Assembly (NCBI GenBank): GCA_937923145.1 | Contig: CALAJT010000016.1 | Location: 20,489-84,488 of the forward strand | Source: an uncultured Rubritalea sp. | GTDB taxonomy: Bacteria; Verrucomicrobiota; Verrucomicrobiia; Verrucomicrobiales; Akkermansiaceae | DNA length: 64,000 nt | Direction: 5' to 3' | Part shown: positions 3,445-47,812 of the stretch, piece by piece | How the letters are laid out: every line of letters starts with the position of its first letter | How positions within the stretch are numbered: the stretch's first letter is position 1 | Position numbers and translations under genes: made by a program | Notes under the pieces: generated by a model | The model's database searches: none | Seen by the model: only the letters and a program-made list of their open reading frames with translations | Told to the model about the DNA's origin: nothing

Positions 3445-3544
3445 AATTTTTGTTTGGTTATTCTTTGAGTAGACTCTGAACGCTGATTTGTAAAATTTCC
3501 ATTATAAAACTCCACTATTTCTGTAACGACACCATAATCACTTC

Positions 3545-3982
3545 ATGAAGCACACTATCATCGCTGCCGGAAAACCTGCGCTTAGCTATTGTAAGGACGG
3601 AGTAGCTGAATATCTAAAGCGGCTCAAGCGCTATGGAAACTATGAACTCAAGCATATTAAGGATGGAAGCTCAGTGCAGGTTTCCCAGCGTCATCGCGAG
3701 CAGAGTCAGGGAACGATAAGAATAGTGCTAGATGAGCGAGGTGAGCAACTCACCACAGATCAGCTGCTTAAAAGAATTAATGCATGGGAAATGCGTGGGG
3801 AGAAGCGAGCTACTTATCACATCGGAGCATCAGATGGGCACACTGAAGATCTGCGAAAGGAAGCAGATCTGGTCTGGGCACTAAGCCCACTAACACTCCA
3901 GCATGAGCTAGCTTTGGTAGTACTGTTAGAGCAGCTCTACCGCATCGCTACGATTCAAAAAGGTGAACCGTATCACCGTTAG
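3545..3982 (+). CDS. rlmH: 23S rRNA (pseudouridine1915-N3)-methyltransferase RlmH
   Basis: LDERGEQLTTDQ, IGASDGH, LSPLTLQHELALVVLLEQLYRI and C-terminal KGEPYHR. Confidence 0.93.
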   Translation: MKHTIIAAGKPALSYCKDGVAEYLKRLKRYGNYELKHIKDGSSVQVSQRHREQSQGTIRIVLDERGEQLTTDQLLKRINAWEMRGEKRATYHIGASDGHTEDLRKEADLVWALSPLTLQHELALVVLLEQLYRIATIQKGEPYHR

Positions 3983-4027
3983 GCACAATAGATTGAACAT
4001 TTCTGAATGTAGTATGTCTAAGACCGC

Positions 4028-4465
4028 ATGCGGCGTATTCTTACCTACATCCTCACATTTCTCATCAGCTCTGCAATCGTTTCTCAAGCAGGAAAGCTAG
4101 ATGACTTAACTAAACTGCGTTCGGAGGTATCTCTCGCTTTAGATAGTCTCAAAGTGTCCGGCTTAGGGCATGCGCATCCTAAGATTAAAGAGATGCAAAA
4201 AGTGCTGGGAACACTTGAACTACAAATTGAGAACACTAAAGAACTGCAACAAGAAATCATTATACTAATAGAAGGAACCAAATCAAAATATTTGGCAGGA
4301 CACGCTAGATACGAAAAATCAGACATTGCACTTACCGAGCTACTAGAAGCAGGCTGGAAAATCGAAAAAATAATCTCTGCAGGCACGACTAAAGAATTAC
4401 CTGAAATCCAAGAAGAGGCAGATCTTCTCAAAGCCGCTTATGTGTGGCTTAGTTTCGAAGGTTGA
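4028..4465 (+). CDS. hypothetical secreted protein
   Basis: ORF with N-terminal signal-like hydrophobic segment; no recognised family. Confidence 0.55.
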   Translation: MRRILTYILTFLISSAIVSQAGKLDDLTKLRSEVSLALDSLKVSGLGHAHPKIKEMQKVLGTLELQIENTKELQQEIIILIEGTKSKYLAGHARYEKSDIALTELLEAGWKIEKIISAGTTKELPEIQEEADLLKAAYVWLSFEG

Positions 4466-4468
4466 AAA

Positions 4469-5245
4469 TCATTCAGTCCACTGAATAGTAGTCACAATTA
4501 CATTATGGTCTGATGCGACAGTCCCCTCTTTATGTAGAGTTAGTATCTCTGCAGAATGAACTTTTAGGCTCGGTGATGTTAAGATATAGTCAATCCTACG
4601 ATTTCCTTTCTTGCTCACCTTCCAGCTATTGTATGTGCTACTATTTTCGAGATCATGATCATTGATGGTGTAGCTATCTCGTAATATTTTCTTATCAGCT
4701 AGCAATATTTTAAGTGGCTTGCTTCCTGGCTTGCAGTTTAGATCACCCATTAGGACTACAGGGTCATCTTTGTGTTCTCTTTCACCTATTTGTTTCAGAA
4801 GAAACACCGCAGACATTCTTCTAGATTTCCATGACATGTGATCTAGGTGAGCATTATAGATATAGATACCCTTGCCGTTTTTATCGACTAATCTTATCCA
4901 TGTGCACATCCTAGGGATTCTGTTTCCCCATGATGTTGAGCCTGGCACTTCTGGTGTTTCAGAGAGCCATAGATTTCCATGGTCAGTTTTCTTCCACTGT
5001 TCATCCTTATAGAAAATAGGGATGTGTTCACCAGTTTCATGACCATCATCACGACCCACTCCCACGTAGGAATAGTCGACCATCGTCTTCTTTAAATCTG
5101 CTAATTGCTCAGGGAGAACTTCTTGGAAGCCGACTATACTGGGGGTGACTATAGCCTCAGCCATGATCGGCAGTCTATTCGCCCAATATCTACTTTTTCT
5201 AAATCCTCCACTAGCATAGCGGATGTTGTAGCTCATTATCTTCAT
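4469..5245 (-). CDS. endonuclease/exonuclease/phosphatase family protein
   Basis: MSYNIRYA, GFQEVLPEQ, NAHLDH, LMGDLNCKPGS, RIDYIL, ASDHNVIV motifs. Confidence 0.92.
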   Translation of the reverse strand: MKIMSYNIRYASGGFRKSRYWANRLPIMAEAIVTPSIVGFQEVLPEQLADLKKTMVDYSYVGVGRDDGHETGEHIPIFYKDEQWKKTDHGNLWLSETPEVPGSTSWGNRIPRMCTWIRLVDKNGKGIYIYNAHLDHMSWKSRRMSAVFLLKQIGEREHKDDPVVLMGDLNCKPGSKPLKILLADKKILRDSYTINDHDLENSSTYNSWKVSKKGNRRIDYILTSPSLKVHSAEILTLHKEGTVASDHNVIVTTIQWTE

Positions 5246-38805: not shown

Positions 38806-38885
<80 letters not shown>

Positions 38886-38903
38886 AAAATCAGAAATGTA
38901 ACT

Positions 38904-38940
38904 AAAAAGCCTTACAGTATATAGCTGTAGGGCTTTTTTG
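38904..38940 (+). terminator. element-borne terminator downstream of reconstituted tRNA-Glu
   Basis: AAAGCCTTACAG-TATATAG-CTGTAGGGCTTTTTT. Confidence 0.85.
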
Positions 38941-39008
38941 TGCCCTTTTCACAAAATCCCGTCCTGTCTCTAAAATGCCCCAAAATGCAGGTTTTTGCGC
39001 TATCTGAG

Positions 39009-39028
39009 ACGGGACATGAAACGGGACA
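39009..39028 (+). repeat. paired direct repeat ACGGGACA at left end of element
   Basis: ACGGGACA at 39009-39016 and 39021-39028 (12 bp offset). Confidence 0.75.
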
Positions 39029-39392
39029 AATATTCTGAATTGATTTCAGATAATAATTAAATGATCTTAATTAAGCTGAATTGATTAGAATAAAGTTTCT
39101 ACTATTCAATCAATTGACCTCAGCTTGTCTCTGAAGAGCTAGGCTATTGAGCTAACCAATCAAAGGGGGGGGTAAAGAGACTCCCGCTTGTTTTATAAGC
39201 ATAGGGCTACCCTTTGCTGAACTAAACCACACAAAGTCCACTTGCTCTCCGTCATCTATACCTAAGAGTATATAGAGAAAATACACTATCGTAGTTATTT
39301 CTATTTAACGCACATCAGCGAAATCTATTCTAATAAGTCTATGTAATTTTCTCTTCACAAAAGGAAAAACATAAATATATAATCTCAATGTT

Positions 39393-40064
39393 ATGAATAT
39401 TAAAATCGCCCTCTTATTATCGTTATTTTCCACACTGTTTCCATCTTGCTCCAGCACCTCACAAAATAAATCTGTCGCTATCAAATCAAAAGCCACTGAA
39501 ACTTTTAGGATCAATGAAGGCTACAAAAGACATGTGCTAACAAGAGATCAAGCTGCTCATCTAAAAAAGAGACTAGCTAGTTCTAATCTTCCTAACTCAG
39601 CATTATCTGCCAGAGACAAAAGCATAATTTTAAGCAAATTAACCTCAGTAAGTAAAAACAATCCCTTCATAGATATAAATCGTGATTTCAATAACAATCT
39701 TATCAGCAAAAAACAATGGGAGTATAGAACTAAGAAAACAAATCAAGCTCTAGCGAACCAAAGTCATATAGCACGACAAAAAACGAATTATAGCCGTGGC
39801 AGAGATTACTCAAGAGAATTTGCCATGGCTTCACAGCAATCAGATAGGAATGCTGCTATTAATAACGCCGCAGTCATCGGAGCTGCGAGCCGTGGATTTT
39901 CAAATATAGGTAACACCTCTTATAGCCAACCAAAACCCACTTCATATGGTATCTATAACAATAATGGTATTCAAACAGGCACATTAAGCCCAATCAAATA
40001 TTCGGGTATAGGTGGAGTGGGTGTAGGTTCTTCAAATGGAATAAGCTACGCTAGAGGTTATTAA
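39393..40064 (+). CDS. putative lipoprotein of unknown function (element cargo)
   Basis: Signal peptide MNIKIALLLSLFSTLFPSC with lipobox-like cysteine; Asn/Ser/Gly-rich C-terminus. Confidence 0.65.
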   Translation: MNIKIALLLSLFSTLFPSCSSTSQNKSVAIKSKATETFRINEGYKRHVLTRDQAAHLKKRLASSNLPNSALSARDKSIILSKLTSVSKNNPFIDINRDFNNNLISKKQWEYRTKKTNQALANQSHIARQKTNYSRGRDYSREFAMASQQSDRNAAINNAAVIGAASRGFSNIGNTSYSQPKPTSYGIYNNNGIQTGTLSPIKYSGIGGVGVGSSNGISYARGY

Positions 40065-40087
40065 GTATATTTAATGAATCAATTGAA

Positions 40088-40201
40088 GGTAATTAAAAAC
40101 CCTTACAACAATTATAATTACCTGTTCTGAAGAAGTCTAAGGTAATTGATCACTCTTTTAAGTTCATAGCTATTTTAAAGAGATCAGGGCTGGTAATTGA
40201 T
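40088..40201. repeat. iteron-like GGTAATT(G/A)A cluster
   Basis: GGTAATTA 40088, inverted TAATTACC 40115-40122, GGTAATTGAT 40141 and 40192. Confidence 0.55.
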
Positions 40202-40280
40202 TTGTTCATATATAGGGGATATGTGATGAATATATGATAGGCAATTCATCTAAAACATGTTATGGTAGTTTCAGAAAATA

Positions 40281-40802
40281 ATGAAAGATACTACCAATAA
40301 AAAGACTGAGCGTAGCAAGTTAGACTTGGCTGTCATCCGTGTGCTAGTCAGTGAAGGCGTAACTACTCCCGCAATTATCGCTAAGCATGTCACATGTAAC
40401 CTCAGAACAATAGGTAAGCATTTGAAGACTATATCCATGGAGCTTACCACCAAGGCGAATAAATCTACGCTTTTTGACGTGTTCTCTTACCCTAAGGTGA
40501 ATCTGGTTAAAGAACGAGACCAGCAAATGAAAGACCTTAAAAACGAGTCCTCAGCCTTATCAAAAGCATTAATAGAGCATGAGGCTGGAACTAGAGACTG
40601 GCTTGCTATCCATAAGCAATTACTCAGCACCCGTAATGAATTGAATAAAATCTCAGGCTTACAAATGGCTTTAGATGTAGCCAAGGCAGGGACAATGAAG
40701 AATCTAGATAAGCAGGCTAAACCAGCAAAGCCTGTTAATCCACGTATTGTAGGCTATCAGCCCGCATCCATCACTAAGAAAAAAAGATGTCTGAATGACT
40801 AA
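40281..40802 (+). CDS. HTH-containing protein with helical C-terminal region (element)
   Basis: LDLAVIRVLVSEGVTTPAIIAKHVTCNLRTIGKHLKTI HTH-like; coiled C-terminal half. Confidence 0.65.
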   Translation: MKDTTNKKTERSKLDLAVIRVLVSEGVTTPAIIAKHVTCNLRTIGKHLKTISMELTTKANKSTLFDVFSYPKVNLVKERDQQMKDLKNESSALSKALIEHEAGTRDWLAIHKQLLSTRNELNKISGLQMALDVAKAGTMKNLDKQAKPAKPVNPRIVGYQPASITKKKRCLND

Positions 40803-40840
40803 AACCACTATTTTGCTCCTTAGGGGCGCTGCCTTTCTTC

Positions 40841-41659
40841 CTACTTTAGCCTCTTAACACCTATCGAATTTGACATTCTTTCGACTTTCATTCTCCAACC
40901 TCCATACTCAGAAGGATAAATCAGAACATTAGGCGAGAATTCATAATTATATTCATAGTCGTATTCGGATTGTTGCCATATTTGTCCATTCCTTAGCTTA
41001 AAGATAGTATCTCCATCCCAGCCTTCAAAATTTCCATCTATCTGACTATTAAAAGCACTCGCTGTATAAGCTCCATTAGATGCCGTAAGTGTGCGACTCC
41101 TCGGTACTGCCACATATTTTCTTTGCGCTGGTTGAGGTTTTGCCCATGATATCTTTTCCTCTTTTACTCTTCGTTTAAGGGTGCTCTCAATACTCGTCTT
41201 AGTGTGATTGCTATTGGAGGCTTGAGATAGACTGAATACTCCACGTTGTTGACCTAAATTCCTGAAGTTTTCAACAATAAACGCCCCCTTAAAATAGCTC
41301 CCTTGGATCTTTCCTTTAAAATGGATAGCTGGACCTATTCCGCTTTCTGGGAGCTTGGTGAACGAACAAGTATCTCCAGTAATGAGACCATTGAATCTAC
41401 CTGAGCCATTTAGAGGTTTTGCGACAATCATAATACCATTCACTACACCTGTAGAATGAGAGTAATCATTAATGTGTAATAAAACTTTAGCATTACCTCC
41501 ATGTGTTTTATTTGAAACAACACCTTCAAGGATCGAGCCTTTAATTATTAAACTTTGCTCGTAACTGCTACTACTCTGGTTAGCTAGATTGGGCTGGTTA
41601 GAGCAAGATGCAGAAAGGATGGGAATCACTATAAGAGAGAGTAGCTTGGCATATTTCAT
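40841..41659 (-). CDS. putative lipoprotein of unknown function (element cargo)
   Basis: MKYAKLLSLIVIPILSASC lipobox-like; no recognised family. Confidence 0.65.
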   Translation of the reverse strand: MKYAKLLSLIVIPILSASCSNQPNLANQSSSSYEQSLIIKGSILEGVVSNKTHGGNAKVLLHINDYSHSTGVVNGIMIVAKPLNGSGRFNGLITGDTCSFTKLPESGIGPAIHFKGKIQGSYFKGAFIVENFRNLGQQRGVFSLSQASNSNHTKTSIESTLKRRVKEEKISWAKPQPAQRKYVAVPRSRTLTASNGAYTASAFNSQIDGNFEGWDGDTIFKLRNGQIWQQSEYDYEYNYEFSPNVLIYPSEYGGWRMKVERMSNSIGVKRLK

Positions 41660-41928
41660 AAATAGTTAAATACGAACTTCACTAAGCCCTGTCAATTAGC
41701 ATCCTCTGAGCAAGGATTTTCTAATTTTGGTTAAGTCATATTATATTGATTATGAATGGTTGAATTGTCACTACTGGAGATTTCTACTATCCTGTGGTGA
41801 AAGTAGGATACGATATAAGTTATAACGTGAGCTTCATGGGAATGCCAGTTAGATAGGTCATCTCTAATGCTTTACTTACTTCCCCTTTGATCCCCCCCCC
41901 CCCTACCATGCGATTAGTTTTGTCCACC

Positions 41929-43269
41929 TCACCTTTTCTCTAACACCTTCAAATCTCGCTGTATAGTTTTAGAGCTACATTCAAGTTGAGTTGCTAAATC
42001 CACATGTCTAGCATTAGGGTTTATACTAACCAGCTTCTCAAGTGCCTCTCTGCGCTCTTTGATCATCCATGCTTTAGAGGCTTTCATTTTGCGTTCTTCT
42101 TTTAGGGATTGAGGTATCAGTTGTACTAATCCTAGGGCTTCTGCTGATGCTCGGTTAATATTCAACTTTTTTACTATGGTCTCATCTCTGCTAAAAGGGA
42201 CGTTTGCATCTTGTCCGTTAGCTATAAAATCTGCTGGGTTTAGTTTTCCGTATGAAGTAATGATGTTCTCTAGTTCATCTTCTGGGTATGGTGGCAAGGT
42301 AAGTTTCGAGTAGCGTTTGAGGCATTTTTCAAATTCCTCTCCATGTATTCTTAAAGCTCTTAAGTGTTTGGCTATTTCTGTTAGCGCAAATCGTCTGTAG
42401 CCTTCATAGATCATTTTATTTTCAAATAGAATAGAAAGGTCATTCAGCCTATTTTCATTTAGTATTTTGAATCCTTTATCACCTGTCTTGTTATCTTTGG
42501 CTTTGAAACTAATGATAGATTTTCGTGGGGTTGCCTTTTGGTTAGACACAGATAGCCTCTGAGCGAGTTCTTCTAGGTTGTAACGATAAACTCCTTGCTC
42601 ATCTCCCTGTAGAGACCATGAGACGCTGGCATGTGACTTAGAGTTTATGCTATTAGGGTAACGAATGATTCTCGACGCATCACAAATACTATCTACTGGA
42701 AGGCTGGGGAATTTCTGTTGTAGTGCTTTGTTTACTGATTTGTATATAGCTAAGCGTTCTGCCATTCTTCTGCGGTGGTAAGGCTGCTCGTCTGCTTCTA
42801 GTAGCCATAAAGCCCACATTCCTTGACCAGATCGGATGAATACTGATGGTTTCGGTATTTCTCCTAGCTCAGCAAGTTTTCTAATTTCTGTTTCAGCCTC
42901 AAATACTGAGAGCATAGAATTATGGTGCTTTTTACCCTCTTCATATCGTCCACAATCTACATCGATGTAAACAGCGTTTAAGTGCGTGAGATTTTTCTCT
43001 TTGAAGGAATTAGGAATGAAAGGAATGATCTTGCCTTTGTTTTTGGCTAAGATTTTTTCAGGGCAGAAGAATGAGTTTATAGTCATAAATAGATCTACCT
43101 TATCATACAGAATGCTAAGATGAGGAGTTATTATATGCTCATATTCTAATACAGTAAACGCTCCATAGGTAGATACTTCACTGTCTTCTTTTTCGCTTAT
43201 GATGAATGTGCTTCCTTCTCTTTTGTGATTATAAAGTTGCCTTAAAATTGTGGGTGTATCGCTAGCCAT
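41929..43269 (-). CDS. AEP-superfamily primase-like replication protein with C-terminal HTH
   Basis: HLNAVYIDVDCG, PSVFIRSGQGMWALWLL, SICDASRIIRYPNSINSKSH resemble AEP/RepB-type primase motifs; C-terminal HVDLATQLECSSKTIQRDLKVL HTH. Confidence 0.65.
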   Translation of the reverse strand: MASDTPTILRQLYNHKREGSTFIISEKEDSEVSTYGAFTVLEYEHIITPHLSILYDKVDLFMTINSFFCPEKILAKNKGKIIPFIPNSFKEKNLTHLNAVYIDVDCGRYEEGKKHHNSMLSVFEAETEIRKLAELGEIPKPSVFIRSGQGMWALWLLEADEQPYHRRRMAERLAIYKSVNKALQQKFPSLPVDSICDASRIIRYPNSINSKSHASVSWSLQGDEQGVYRYNLEELAQRLSVSNQKATPRKSIISFKAKDNKTGDKGFKILNENRLNDLSILFENKMIYEGYRRFALTEIAKHLRALRIHGEEFEKCLKRYSKLTLPPYPEDELENIITSYGKLNPADFIANGQDANVPFSRDETIVKKLNINRASAEALGLVQLIPQSLKEERKMKASKAWMIKERREALEKLVSINPNARHVDLATQLECSSKTIQRDLKVLEKR

Positions 43270-43335
43270 TATATAAATAGAAAGAGCCGTGAAGTTGTAT
43301 CTCTACGCCTCCACGGCTCATTTGTTAGGGTTCTG

Positions 43336-43605
43336 TTAGGCTACTAGATCGTTAAGTTGATCTGTGGGAAGTGAATAGAATGAATAGCAGATGGAACGTC
43401 CTACCTGCTTTTTGTATTCTATCCGATTTCTGATGCTCCATCCGTAGTCTATCCGTAGCGTTGAAATGACGCTATGAACTGCCATCGAATGAGCATGAGA
43501 TGCTAGCTTGAATCCTTCTACTTCAGCGCCATTTGCTTCAATGAGTATTTGTAGAACGATTGCGCCTTGTGTGCCTTCTCTCGGCTGTTTTGGCTCATCT
43601 AACAT
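43336..43605 (-). CDS. small winged-helix-like protein (element)
   Basis: Start MLDEPKQPREG at 43605 preceded by GGAGG; track ORF to 43653 overlaps an upstream coupled ORF. Confidence 0.55.
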   Translation of the reverse strand: MLDEPKQPREGTQGAIVLQILIEANGAEVEGFKLASHAHSMAVHSVISTLRIDYGWSIRNRIEYKKQVGRSICYSFYSLPTDQLNDLVA

Positions 43606-43721
43606 GTTTTGCCTCCTTCTCTGGTGAGAATGGCTAGCTGGGCTAGTAGGCATTCCGTAGCTTCTGCTACTATGCTGTTGATTTCTTCATCTGTTAGATG
43701 ATTATTTTTTAAATGTGGCAT
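43599..43721 (-). CDS. unlisted 40-aa small ORF coupled to downstream gene
   Basis: MPHLKNNHLTDEEINSIVAEATECLLAQLAILTREGGKTC*; ends in ATGTTAG overlapping the next start. Confidence 0.5.
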   Translation of the reverse strand: MPHLKNNHLTDEEINSIVAEATECLLAQLAILTREGGKTC

Positions 43722-43830
43722 AATTTTTTTAATTGAATTATGCTTGCCTCAAGGAGTAAGAAAGAGTATCAAAAGTGCTTAGGATTTACTTTTGATTCCG
43801 TTTGCTCTTTGGGGCAAGCGGTTTCTTTTT

Positions 43831-44064
43831 TTAGTCGATGGAATTAATTGTGAAGCGTTTTTCTAATGCTGTTCTGACGTGATCTACACGATAGAATATG
43901 CGCTTCCCGACTTTGATGAATGGCACGTAACCTTTCGATTTCCATTCGAGAAAAGTTCTAAGTCCCGGTCTTGATGCTTCATCCTCAAAAATGAGTTCTA
44001 AGCACCGCTTCGTGCCAACTAATGTAGGCTCTTGTCTGGTGGTGGTATTTTTATGCTTGTGCAT
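43831..44064 (-). CDS. AlpA/excisionase-like helix-turn-helix protein
   Basis: LRTFLEWKSKGYVPFIKVGKRIFYRVDHVRTALEKRF matches HTH_17/excisionase layout. Confidence 0.7.
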   Translation of the reverse strand: MHKHKNTTTRQEPTLVGTKRCLELIFEDEASRPGLRTFLEWKSKGYVPFIKVGKRIFYRVDHVRTALEKRFTINSID

Positions 44065-44150
44065 GTTGACAGTAGTTTCAGGAATTTCTGAAAATTATCA
44101 ACTGGGGGTATTACTTTAGCAATTCCCCCACCTTTAAAAAACAACAAAAA

Positions 44151-45134
44151 TCACCGCAACTGACTTATAAACAGCAACCCAGAGCCTCTTAACGTTTTTC
44201 TTATTTTTTCTGCAGAAGCCTGTTCCTCGATCAATGATTTATTAGTTAGATTGTGAAAAATTGCTAATTCTTCTGGATTATTTGGTATGCGATAGACGCA
44301 AGAAATGAAATTATAATAGGATCGCATATACTGAATAATTTTGTATTCATTGCGCTTCATTAATTTTGTATAACAATCGATTAAAGATTTAAGTTCGCCA
44401 TGTCTGCCTGCCTGTAGATATTCTGCGAATAAGTATCCAATCGCCTCTCTAGACTTAACCACTGTTTGAGGGTGAGTCCTTAGACCTAGCGAAAAGGCAG
44501 AACCATGAGAGTTTTCACTTAAAGCACCTCCTATATTTCGGGTTAGCCAGACTGCTTCTGTATTGAGCTTTATTTTGTCTTTAGACTTCTTTGCATCTTT
44601 AGTATGCCTACTAGCGTCTAACCTAAATTTGACAGCTTTATCAGCTTCAAATGCTAAACGGTATTTTTCTCTGAGGGTTTCATTATCTTGAAATAAAGGT
44701 GATGAAACAAGTTCGCCACTCTCTTCACAAAGCCCTATCGTGAGTTCATCTAATTCTTTAATAGACTTATAAGTAAAGGCACTATCTTTCATTTTGAATA
44801 GCAACTCAGGCTTCTCAAAGACGACTGGTTTAATTGTAGCTAGATCTATAAGCTCCTTTTCTTTTCGGGCTAGCTCTTGTTTGAGGATAATTATTTCACG
44901 CTGTTTATGTAGTTTTGCTAATTTCTCCTCACCGCTAGCAATTGCCTTCTCATCTCTAGCAACTAACTCTAGGTGCTTCTGATTTCTAATTTCGTTTAGC
45001 TCATCTACTTCCGCTTCAAAATAGCTTAAAATAATATCACGTTCTCTTTTCGTGAAGTGGTCAAAATGAGATACTATTTTATCATACCTAGCTAGTAACT
45101 CATCTTCCTCTTCATTCATTGTTCGATATTTCAA
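44151..45134 (-). CDS. coiled-coil protein of unknown function (element)
   Basis: Long charged helical N-terminal half (ELNEIRNQKHLELVARDEKAIASGEEKLAKLHKQREIIILKQELARKEKEL); C-terminal half unrecognised. Confidence 0.6.
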   Translation of the reverse strand: MKYRTMNEEEDELLARYDKIVSHFDHFTKRERDIILSYFEAEVDELNEIRNQKHLELVARDEKAIASGEEKLAKLHKQREIIILKQELARKEKELIDLATIKPVVFEKPELLFKMKDSAFTYKSIKELDELTIGLCEESGELVSSPLFQDNETLREKYRLAFEADKAVKFRLDASRHTKDAKKSKDKIKLNTEAVWLTRNIGGALSENSHGSAFSLGLRTHPQTVVKSREAIGYLFAEYLQAGRHGELKSLIDCYTKLMKRNEYKIIQYMRSYYNFISCVYRIPNNPEELAIFHNLTNKSLIEEQASAEKIRKTLRGSGLLFISQLR

Positions 45135-45186
45135 ATTATTCTATATTAGCGATACTGATTCTATAAGTAAATGAATCAGATTTCAC

Positions 45187-45486
45187 CTAAGCCGATAGCT
45201 CCACTACTGGCTCTATGCCTTTGATTAGTTCATTGCGTTTACTTTTCAGCGCTCGGAAATCGCATTCTACTTGGATGCCGTGCCAGAAGGTGTCTGACTG
45301 GTTGAAGTATGCGCCAAACCTTATCGACATACTGGGAGTGATGGAGCGCTTGCCAAGGACGATTTCATTGATAGCTCTGGGTGGCACTCCGATAGCTCTT
45401 GCCATGGCATTCTGTGAGATGCCTAGGGGCTTTAAGTATTCTTCTAGAAGGATTTCTCCTGCTGTGATTGATTGATTCATAGGCAT
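45187..45486 (-). CDS. HigA-like antitoxin (XRE family)
   Basis: [62 protein letters not shown]. Confidence 0.92.
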
Positions 45487-45516
45487 AACGTAGCGCGTTA
45501 TGGCTAGAGTTCAAGT

Positions 45517-45795
45517 TTAATGGTAATCTACTATGGCAACTTCTTGTATTCCTTGCGGTGTCCAGATGAAGGTGATGCGCCATTGTCTATTGATGCGGAT
45601 AGAGTGATAGCCTTTGAGGTTGCCCCTTAGTGCTTCTAGACGGTTGTTAGGTGGCACGGATAGGTCTTGGAGTGTGGAGGCTTGGTTCAGCTGAATGAGC
45701 TTTCTCAGTGCGACTCTGGCTATGTTATTGAAGCGTTTATTTTTCTCTTCATGGAATAGCTGCTCTGTATCTCGGTTAGCAAAGGATAGGATCAT
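45517..45795 (-). CDS. HigB/RelE-like toxin
   Basis: [58 protein letters not shown]. Confidence 0.92.
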
Positions 45796-45798
45796 GGA

Positions 45799-47106
45799 CT
45801 AGATAGCTTTGAGGTGTGATTCGTTAGCGCTCTCATCTGGCTCGGCTAGTATCGCCTTTCCTGCTTTCATGTCTGGAATGATGCTAAAGAACTCTGCTCC
45901 CTCCTCGGCTGGTCTATGGTCTAGGTAGTGCTTCTTAATCATGCGCTCACTATTTCCTGCTTCCTGTGCTGTGTTCCCTATCGATCTGTGAAGGGCGATG
46001 TGATAGCTTATGAATGAATGTCTGGTTTCATCTGTCTGGAGGTTGAATTTCTTTCTAATCTTTGGGTAGTCTGTAATTAGATTAGGTGGCATGATTGGCT
46101 TTCCTTCATATGCTTTTAGCCATGCTATTAGGTTTTCACTCATTTTAATAGGTCTGCTATCCTTGGTCTTTGCTACATCGGCAGGGATCATGATACGCCC
46201 TGTAGTGAGATTGATAAGCTCTTCTTCACGTGCTGAGAGCTTGTAGAGTTCGCCATTATCTATTGATGGTCTGATTCCTGCAAAGTAAGCTAGAGCGAAC
46301 CATTTCACTAGGCTACCGTCTTTATAGTTCATAAGGTAGCTGAATAGCTCCTTGGTGGTGTCTGTCTTAGTGGTGGCGATGTCTGGACGTTCTTCAGCTA
46401 TTCTCTTAGCTGAGTGAACTGTAATTCCCTCTACGGGATTATTAAATGTCCACGGGCGATTGGTGCTAAGGTCTCTTTCTCCAGCCCATATGAAAAAGGA
46501 TGCTATCTCGTTGCGGTGATTGTTCCACGTCTTCTTTTTAGCCACGGTAGAGCCGTCACGGCTTCGCAGTGTCTTGAGATATGATTTCACGCTTACCTCG
46601 GTGATGGTGTGAACAAGCGCATCCTCTGTGAATCTAGAGAATGATCTGAGAATGGTTCTAGTCTTCTTTCTCGTTGGCTCTCTCACTCCTTCACGCTCCT
46701 TATCATCCAGATAGTGTTTCAAGCCGTCCTTGATAGAAATAGTAAATTCTGGGGGGCGATGATGCTTAAGATAAAACTCGGTAACTTCTCTGAGTGAATA
46801 GGCTTCACCTAAATCCTTGTATGCTTGCTCAGACTCTCTTAGCTGGCTTTCATTTAGTGAAGTGAGTAATAGAGCTTGGTGTGTGCCTCTGTTCTTTAGA
46901 TTGATGTTTACTGAATTTGCATAAGTTTCAGCTTTAGTCTGGTCAGTGAATTGCTTGCGCTGCCATTTGCCGTCTTCTTTCCAGCCTCGGACGATGTAGC
47001 CAAAATACTCAATGCCTCGCTTAGTGTAGGTGTGAGGATAGACTTTCGCCTCTTCATCTTTTCCTCTATAGCCGTCTTTCTGCTTCAATCTCACTCTCTT
47101 GCTCAT
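45799..47106 (-). CDS. tyrosine recombinase/integrase
   Basis: N-terminal SAM-like core-binding domain; catalytic candidates R in FAGIRPS, DETRHSFISYH, Y in MIKKHYLDHRP. Confidence 0.85.
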   Translation of the reverse strand: MSKRVRLKQKDGYRGKDEEAKVYPHTYTKRGIEYFGYIVRGWKEDGKWQRKQFTDQTKAETYANSVNINLKNRGTHQALLLTSLNESQLRESEQAYKDLGEAYSLREVTEFYLKHHRPPEFTISIKDGLKHYLDDKEREGVREPTRKKTRTILRSFSRFTEDALVHTITEVSVKSYLKTLRSRDGSTVAKKKTWNNHRNEIASFFIWAGERDLSTNRPWTFNNPVEGITVHSAKRIAEERPDIATTKTDTTKELFSYLMNYKDGSLVKWFALAYFAGIRPSIDNGELYKLSAREEELINLTTGRIMIPADVAKTKDSRPIKMSENLIAWLKAYEGKPIMPPNLITDYPKIRKKFNLQTDETRHSFISYHIALHRSIGNTAQEAGNSERMIKKHYLDHRPAEEGAEFFSIIPDMKAGKAILAEPDESANESHLKAI

Positions 47107-47151
47107 GGGTGCAAACTAGCGGTATTCAATAGCATAAAACAAGCATTAAAA

Positions 47152-47170
47152 ACGGGACAAGGGACGGGAC
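47152..47170 (+). repeat. paired direct repeat ACGGGAC at right end of element
   Basis: ACGGGACA 47152-47159 and ACGGGAC 47164-47170 (12 bp offset), matching the left-end pair. Confidence 0.75.
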
Positions 47171-47204
47171 GATACACTATTCACCCATTTCATATACTAG
47201 TCCA

Positions 47205-47239
<35 letters not shown>

Positions 47240-47254
47240 ACTGAAATGTTAAAA

Positions 47255-47288
47255 AAAGCCTTTCAGAGCAATCTGAAAGGTTTTTTTG
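47255..47288 (+). terminator. terminator displaced from original tRNA-Glu locus
   Basis: GCCTTTCAGA-GCAA-TCTGAAAGGTTTTTTT. Confidence 0.85.
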
Positions 47289-47812
47289 TGCCCTGTTGCT
47301 TCATGGATGATTAGGTTTAATTTAAATTTTAGTATCACTGTTTAATAAAAAATCAATTCAGCGAAAGGGTATCCTCTAGAGTTCTTTGCACAAGTTATTC
47401 ACAAACATTCTCAACCTTGTGGAACAGTTCTATTTAGGTGCTTTCAGGGTCAAACTATTTTAATCTAACAATTTGGATATTTTTCATCCTCCTACGTGCT
47501 AAAGCCCACAAGCTATTTAACAACACCACACAAAAAAAAAACAACTTATTATTATACAGGTATTTACAGTTTTACGTGTTTTATTTAATTTTTCATGCTC
47601 GGATTAAATTACATGAATCCATGTAATAAATAAGCCGATAAATCTTAGCATCACAAAGTAATCCAGTTTGTTTAATTTCCAATGGTTTATAGAGTAATGA
47701 AAATGTTATTCACAGTATTATGAGTAAATTTCATACATAGCATTTAAGGCTATTCTGACTGTTGAAAAACTTACTCTTGATTGGCTTAGTTGATTTTATT
47801 AGTGTGCGCGCC

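Follow-up and report, generated by a model that had tools for sequence, protein, structure and literature searches.

A probable ColE2 Rep-like replication initiator-primase on a helicase-free 8.35 kb integrative element in an uncultured Rubritalea sp.

ColE2 Rep binds its own origin and synthesises a primer that is extended by DNA polymerase I. Its PriCT-1 and helix-turn-helix (HTH) domains are reported to unwind duplex DNA without an NTPase domain (via PMC5862659). In two families of archaeo-eukaryotic primases (AEPs), PrimHYQ and RepE/RepS, every representative has an AEP domain, a PriCT-1 domain and an HTH, and no helicase is present in the protein or in the element that encodes it (Kazlauskas et al. 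2018, PMC5862659). The same authors asked how such helicase-free elements open their origins, and proposed ColE2-like unwinding by the PriCT-1-HTH module (PMC5862659).

The window examined here is a 64,000 nt stretch of a contig from an uncultured Rubritalea sp. A first-pass annotation, made from the sequence alone, placed an AEP-like primase fused to an HTH at 41929–43269, without stating the strand. A 446 aa ORF spans the whole of this interval on the minus strand, with its ATG at 43269 and its stop at 41929, and the plus-strand frame across it contains stops throughout. The three motifs and the C-terminal HTH string that had been quoted are all found in the ORF. The mobile-element setting that had been supposed was also borne out, as the gene lies within an 8352 bp element inserted in a tRNA-Glu gene and bounded by 33 bp exact direct repeats of the 3′ end of that gene, at 38853 and 47205. 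The GC content of the element is 39.7%, versus 44.6% elsewhere in the window. In the genome of a congener (G009, locus L075), where the upstream YkgJ-like gene adjoins tRNA-Glu and the p145 gene, the tRNA-Glu site is naturally empty; in the window the p145 gene comes after the element. The features of the element and its target are as follows.

38806–38880, plus strand: tRNA-Glu(ttc), the integration target (ARAGORN)
38853–38885, no strand: left att, 3′ end of tRNA-Glu, 33 bp exact repeat (repeat search)
39393–40064, plus strand: 223 aa lipoprotein-like cargo, judged by eye (ORF)
40281–40802, plus strand: 173 aa HTH/coiled-coil-like protein, in the opposite orientation (ORF)
40841–41659, minus strand: 272 aa lipoprotein-like cargo, signal peptide with Cys judged by eye (ORF; no family match)
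41929–43269, minus strand: 446 aa AEP primase/replication initiator, AEP + PriCT-1-like + HTH (ORF, PHROG, tblastn, AlphaFold model, Foldseek, PriCT_1 search, alignment)
43336–43653, minus strand: 105 aa small protein upstream of the primase (ORF; no family match)
43831–44064, minus strand: 77 aa excisionase/AlpA-like protein (blastp, 38–57% identity to proteins encoded close to the integrase of 8 sister elements; alignment)
44151–45134, minus strand: 327 aa coiled-coil-like protein (ORF; no significant family)
45187–45486, minus strand: 99 aa HigA antitoxin (TIGR02607, 6.1e-23)
45517–45795, minus strand: 92 aa HigB-like toxin (position beside HigA and sequence pattern; no NCBIfam match)
45799–47106, minus strand: 435 aa tyrosine integrase (PHROG integrase, 5.8e-13; Phage_int_SAM_4, 4.8e-6)
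47205–47237, no strand: right att, second 33 bp copy, 8352 bp away (repeat search)

When all six frames of 38886–47204 were searched for the Walker A pattern [AG]xxxxGK[ST], the sole match fell in a 32-codon open stretch that is not a plausible gene. The first-pass claim that neither the primase gene nor its neighbours encode a helicase is thus upheld for every plausible gene of the element. A reading of the 173 aa protein as a small terminase was not supported: it has no PHROG or Pfam match or other profile signal, a search of 98 genomes gave no relative, blast did not match it to the terminase of the sister element L057 (see below) and its predicted fold is poor (pLDDT 60.7). A reading of the cargo as defence genes was set aside, as there was no PADLOC match of weight.

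A search for iterons or an origin near the primase gene returned nothing convincing. The 66 bp gap between the 105 aa gene and the primase gene contains a 19 nt imperfect inverted repeat with a 4 nt loop (43281–43322), a candidate attenuator, terminator or origin. Similar palindromes, TTTCAGAAAATAATGAAA and TTTCAGGAATTTCTGAAA, are found at 40269–40286, at the start codon of the 173 aa gene, and at 44076–44093, just upstream of the 77 aa gene. These were a possible shared operator, but the palindrome (TTTCAG..TGAAA) occurs at two element sites and also in a terminator outside, and the excisionase genes of the sisters do not have it upstream, and this reading was discarded. Intergenic homopolymers are present at 41892–41903 (C12) and 39165–39172 (G8). 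Diverged copies of a terminator-like hairpin (38904–38949 and 47253–47297; 84% over 25 nt) follow both att repeats, as if the element brings its own tRNA-Glu terminator.

The 446 aa protein was confirmed as an AEP with an RRM-derived fold, by its motifs, its predicted structure and its homology to plasmid replication proteins, and the AEP core described in the first-pass annotation therefore stands. The parts of the protein are as follows.

42955–42969, minus strand: motif I, YIDVD (D103 and D105), both Asp invariant in 16/16 homologues
42814–42834, minus strand: motif II region, RSGQGMW, with Trp152 at the usual His position (16-homologue alignment)
42643–42693, minus strand: motif III (D193, with D197 nearby) and motif IV (R203..N209) (alignment; motif IV spacing)
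42244–42405, minus strand: PriCT-1-like helical domain, residues 289–342 (sub-threshold PriCT_1 match; helices in the model)
41932–42060, minus strand: C-terminal HTH, residues 404–446 (HTH_11, 3e-5; Foldseek, FapR)

In the AlphaFold model, the overall pLDDT is 73.8 and the blocks of the AEP core are mostly at 85–94. The sole PDB match below 1e-3 returned by Foldseek was the AEP domain of S-2L PrimPol (6zp9; E 2e-5, probability 1.00, TM 0.67 on the target), and the ranks after it were mostly other AEP primases. When viral models were searched by structure, the best named matches were primases, replication proteins and ATPase fusions. PDB sequences, searched by profile, gave HTH matches at best. 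The AEP fold is therefore present in the model, and the metal-binding residues D103, D105 and D193 are all retained; the first-pass annotation had named the loss of either as grounds for giving up its reading.

D103, D105, G150 and D193 are unchanged in all 16 aligned homologues, and R203 is retained in 15 of the 16. The spacing R203..N209 equals that of motif IV of PolpTN2, R231..N237 (PMC5862659). D193, ten residues before R203, is likelier than D197 to be the motif III residue, because the corresponding spacing in S-2L PrimPol runs from D146 to R157. The features of AEP membership found are thus an hhhDhD motif I and an acidic motif III; the sxH of motif II is absent (GMW). This absence is not decisive, because the motif II His is family-specific and gives way to Gln or Tyr in a number of accepted AEP families (PMC5862659). 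Among the 16 homologues the position is occupied by Trp (5), Tyr (5), Gln (3), His (2) and Ala (1), and Gln149 of the window protein is Arg in most relatives.

With Trp in place of His and Gln149 in place of Arg, nucleotide binding by the window protein may differ. The same two substitutions, and a C-terminal HTH similar to those of repressors, could also mean that the AEP is degenerate and no longer catalytic, and that its role is DNA-binding regulation or copy control. However, the metal-binding residues and motif IV are intact and the ORF is full-length and undisrupted. As Trp is common to four relatives (L016–L019), Trp152 is best read as a lineage trait and not as decay. We therefore regard loss of catalysis as highly improbable.

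The domain reading of the first-pass annotation, an AEP core followed by an HTH, was right as far as it went but overlooked a PriCT-1-like domain between the two. The AlphaFold model has helices in the middle region of the protein, and when the whole genome was searched for PriCT_1 at a relaxed threshold, one match was returned at E ≤ 10, to residues 289–342 (12.4 bits, E 0.31; below the Pfam cut-off). Homologues from two records (W02, W05) and two genomes (G502, G503) also contain weak PriCT_1 matches, all below the curated cut-off. Such positional agreement of sub-threshold matches would be hard to get by chance. For the C-terminal HTH, which had been correctly noted, residues 424–445 match HTH_11 at E 3e-5 with 24.3 bits, just under the Pfam cut-off of 25, and Foldseek aligns the domain to FapR at 0.6 Å over about 41 columns.

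When the protein was used to query plasmids with tblastn, 308 records were returned at E ≤ 0.01 (best 9e-11), comprising replication proteins of plasmids and ‘RepB family DNA primase’; phage replication proteins were matched as well (2e-8), and genomes from this order or phylum gave matches at 2.8e-21, 2.2e-19 and 1.3e-25. Residues 92–239 match the PHROG family ‘DNA polymerase/primase’ (E 6.5e-5). Relatives that are 20–31% identical come from Verrucomicrobia, Lentisphaerae, Acidobacteria, Gemmatimonadetes and Oscillospiraceae records. Single-protein scans of viral and genome contigs found no homologue, whereas profile scans of the same contigs did. Three homologues lie next to recombinase genes, namely a site-specific integrase (L008), a serine recombinase (L014) and a tyrosine recombinase (L005). 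The gene is rare in related genomes, as only two others among 143, both from another family of the same order, gave a match.

Relatives of the integrase, 42–49% identical, were found in congeners and in other genera, and the 77 aa gene is also present downstream of the integrase in 8 of the 11 loci fetched. In five of these sister elements the borders are tRNA-Met gene repeats of 31–69 bp, and in one a tRNA-His repeat of 29 bp. Seven sisters encode a replication protein with a Walker A motif, which the window element lacks. These are AAA_25 proteins in L057, L061, L062 and L064, a DUF3987 protein in L058, a BT4734-like AEP with DUF5906 in L059 and a BT4734-like AEP with AAA_25 in L065. In L063, the replication-gene position is occupied by a 431 aa protein (3478–4773) that has no Walker A or family match; motif strings like those of DNA polymerase A (VANIDMKAAHL, LPDTDALIAP) were seen in it by eye.

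A terminase small subunit is clear in L057 (5563–6003; PHROG, 4.9e-12) and has relatives in L062 (6336–6866) and L064 (7628–8242). Because of these small terminases, the sister-element family looks like phage satellites, and its varied replication genes suggest modules that are exchangeable on satellite-like elements. A further reading, which we hold to be somewhat less likely than not, is that compact tRNA-inserted elements of this order, which share an integrase and excisionase and in some cases carry small terminases (and so are probably phage satellites), swap their replication module freely, with the window member relying on a helicase-free AEP with Trp in motif II and its sisters on helicase-primases. 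A search of one literature collection found no paper on small-terminase-bearing elements like L057, L062 and L064 in this order. In L057 (1664–1667) and L060 (2732–2735), the integrase gene shares 4 nt with the gene that follows it, whose place is held by HigBA in the window; an overlap of this kind with the integrase has been reported for ‘iolg’ of PICMIs (PMC10803314).

The window element may itself be a phage-inducible satellite of the PICI/PICMI kind, whose primase amplifies it during infection by a helper phage. Its size of 8.35 kb and its order of integrase, excisionase-like gene, small gene and primase, which is that reported for PICMIs, are consistent with this, as are its compact, tRNA-inserted sisters with their small terminases and DUF3987 or DUF5906 proteins. 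However, neither a terminase small subunit nor any other packaging gene was detected in the window element, no helper phage is known, and the 77 aa protein has no match to AlpA/HTH_17 models, with a weak HTH_17 match in two sisters only. A satellite role is thus somewhat doubtful for this member, and is compatible with the explanation that we favour for its primase.

That explanation, to which we assign a probability of roughly 0.78, is that the gene encodes the replication initiator-primase of the 8.35 kb element, acts like ColE2 Rep and fits PrimHYQ by its motifs and architecture. The tyrosine integrase and the excisionase-like protein would first excise the element. Its origin would then be bound and locally opened by the HTH and PriCT-like domains of the primase, the AEP domain would lay the first primer, and a host DNA polymerase, with a host helicase as needed, would copy the circle.

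The first-pass annotation held that a host helicase must be recruited for replication. On such a view the primase would only prime, and unwinding would depend wholly on the host replicative helicase DnaB. The element has no helicase, and sisters with the same integrase carry helicase-primases, which implies that elements of this kind need helicase function and that here it has to be supplied from some source. Against this, ColE2 Rep, which is built alike, reportedly opens its origin with no NTPase domain, PrimHYQ elements are helicase-free as a class (PMC5862659), and no DnaB-interaction domain was identified in the window protein. Complete dependence on DnaB therefore seems unlikely. Use of a host helicase is a possibility, not a necessity; a ColE2-like start may still draw on DnaB later, and the two readings overlap to that extent.

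How helicase-free AEP elements open their origins was a question posed in 2018 (PMC5862659). In related genomes, a single integration system occurs with replication modules that have a helicase and with one that lacks it, so that a matched comparison is available. The subgroup with Trp in motif II, which includes relatives from Acidobacteria and Gemmatimonadetes, offers a test of AEP nucleotide binding without the classical His.

Among described systems, PrimHYQ, of the PrimPol-PV1 supergroup, is the best fit for the window primase, which is placed by motifs and architecture, whereas the family was defined by clustering. They share a C-terminal HTH after the AEP, the lack of a helicase in protein and element, the motif IV Arg and residence in integrated elements, often in tRNA genes (PMC5862659). 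Between AEP and HTH, where PrimHYQ has PriCT-1, the window protein has a helical region with a sub-threshold PriCT_1 match and none over the curated cut-off. The motif II position of PrimHYQ is variable, with His, Gln and Tyr prevalent (PMC5862659); the window protein has Trp there, and its 16 homologues between them hold Trp, Tyr, Gln, His and Ala. RepE/RepS has the same domain architecture, also without a helicase, but has His in motif II and Gln for the motif III Asp, and Trp152 and Asp193 of the window protein do not fit this. ColE2 Rep is likewise an AEP, PriCT-1 and HTH initiator without an NTPase, acting together with host DNA Pol I at the origin of a plasmid, but belongs to a separate AEP family, and the window protein has no match to the Replicase family (PF03090) at E ≤ 1. 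RepB′ of RSF1010 (PF16793) combines an AEP with PriCT-1, and two relatives in each alignment weakly match RepB_primase. However, RepB′ consists of those two domains only, has Gln in motif II, and works with a separate helicase (RepA) and initiator (RepC). S-2L PrimPol (6ZP9, PMC8065100), though the best structural match to the AEP fold, is fused to PriCT-2 and a VirE-type domain and has the canonical motif II His. Of the features of PICIs and PICMIs, an att site, an integrase and a primase are present in the window element, and an AlpA is suggested by analogy only. The absence of a helicase, which the first-pass annotation rightly observed, is the uniform trait described for PrimHYQ and RepE/RepS (PMC5862659), a point that it had overlooked. 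The gene is ordinary for its family, in which, as described in 2018, a helicase is normally lacking.
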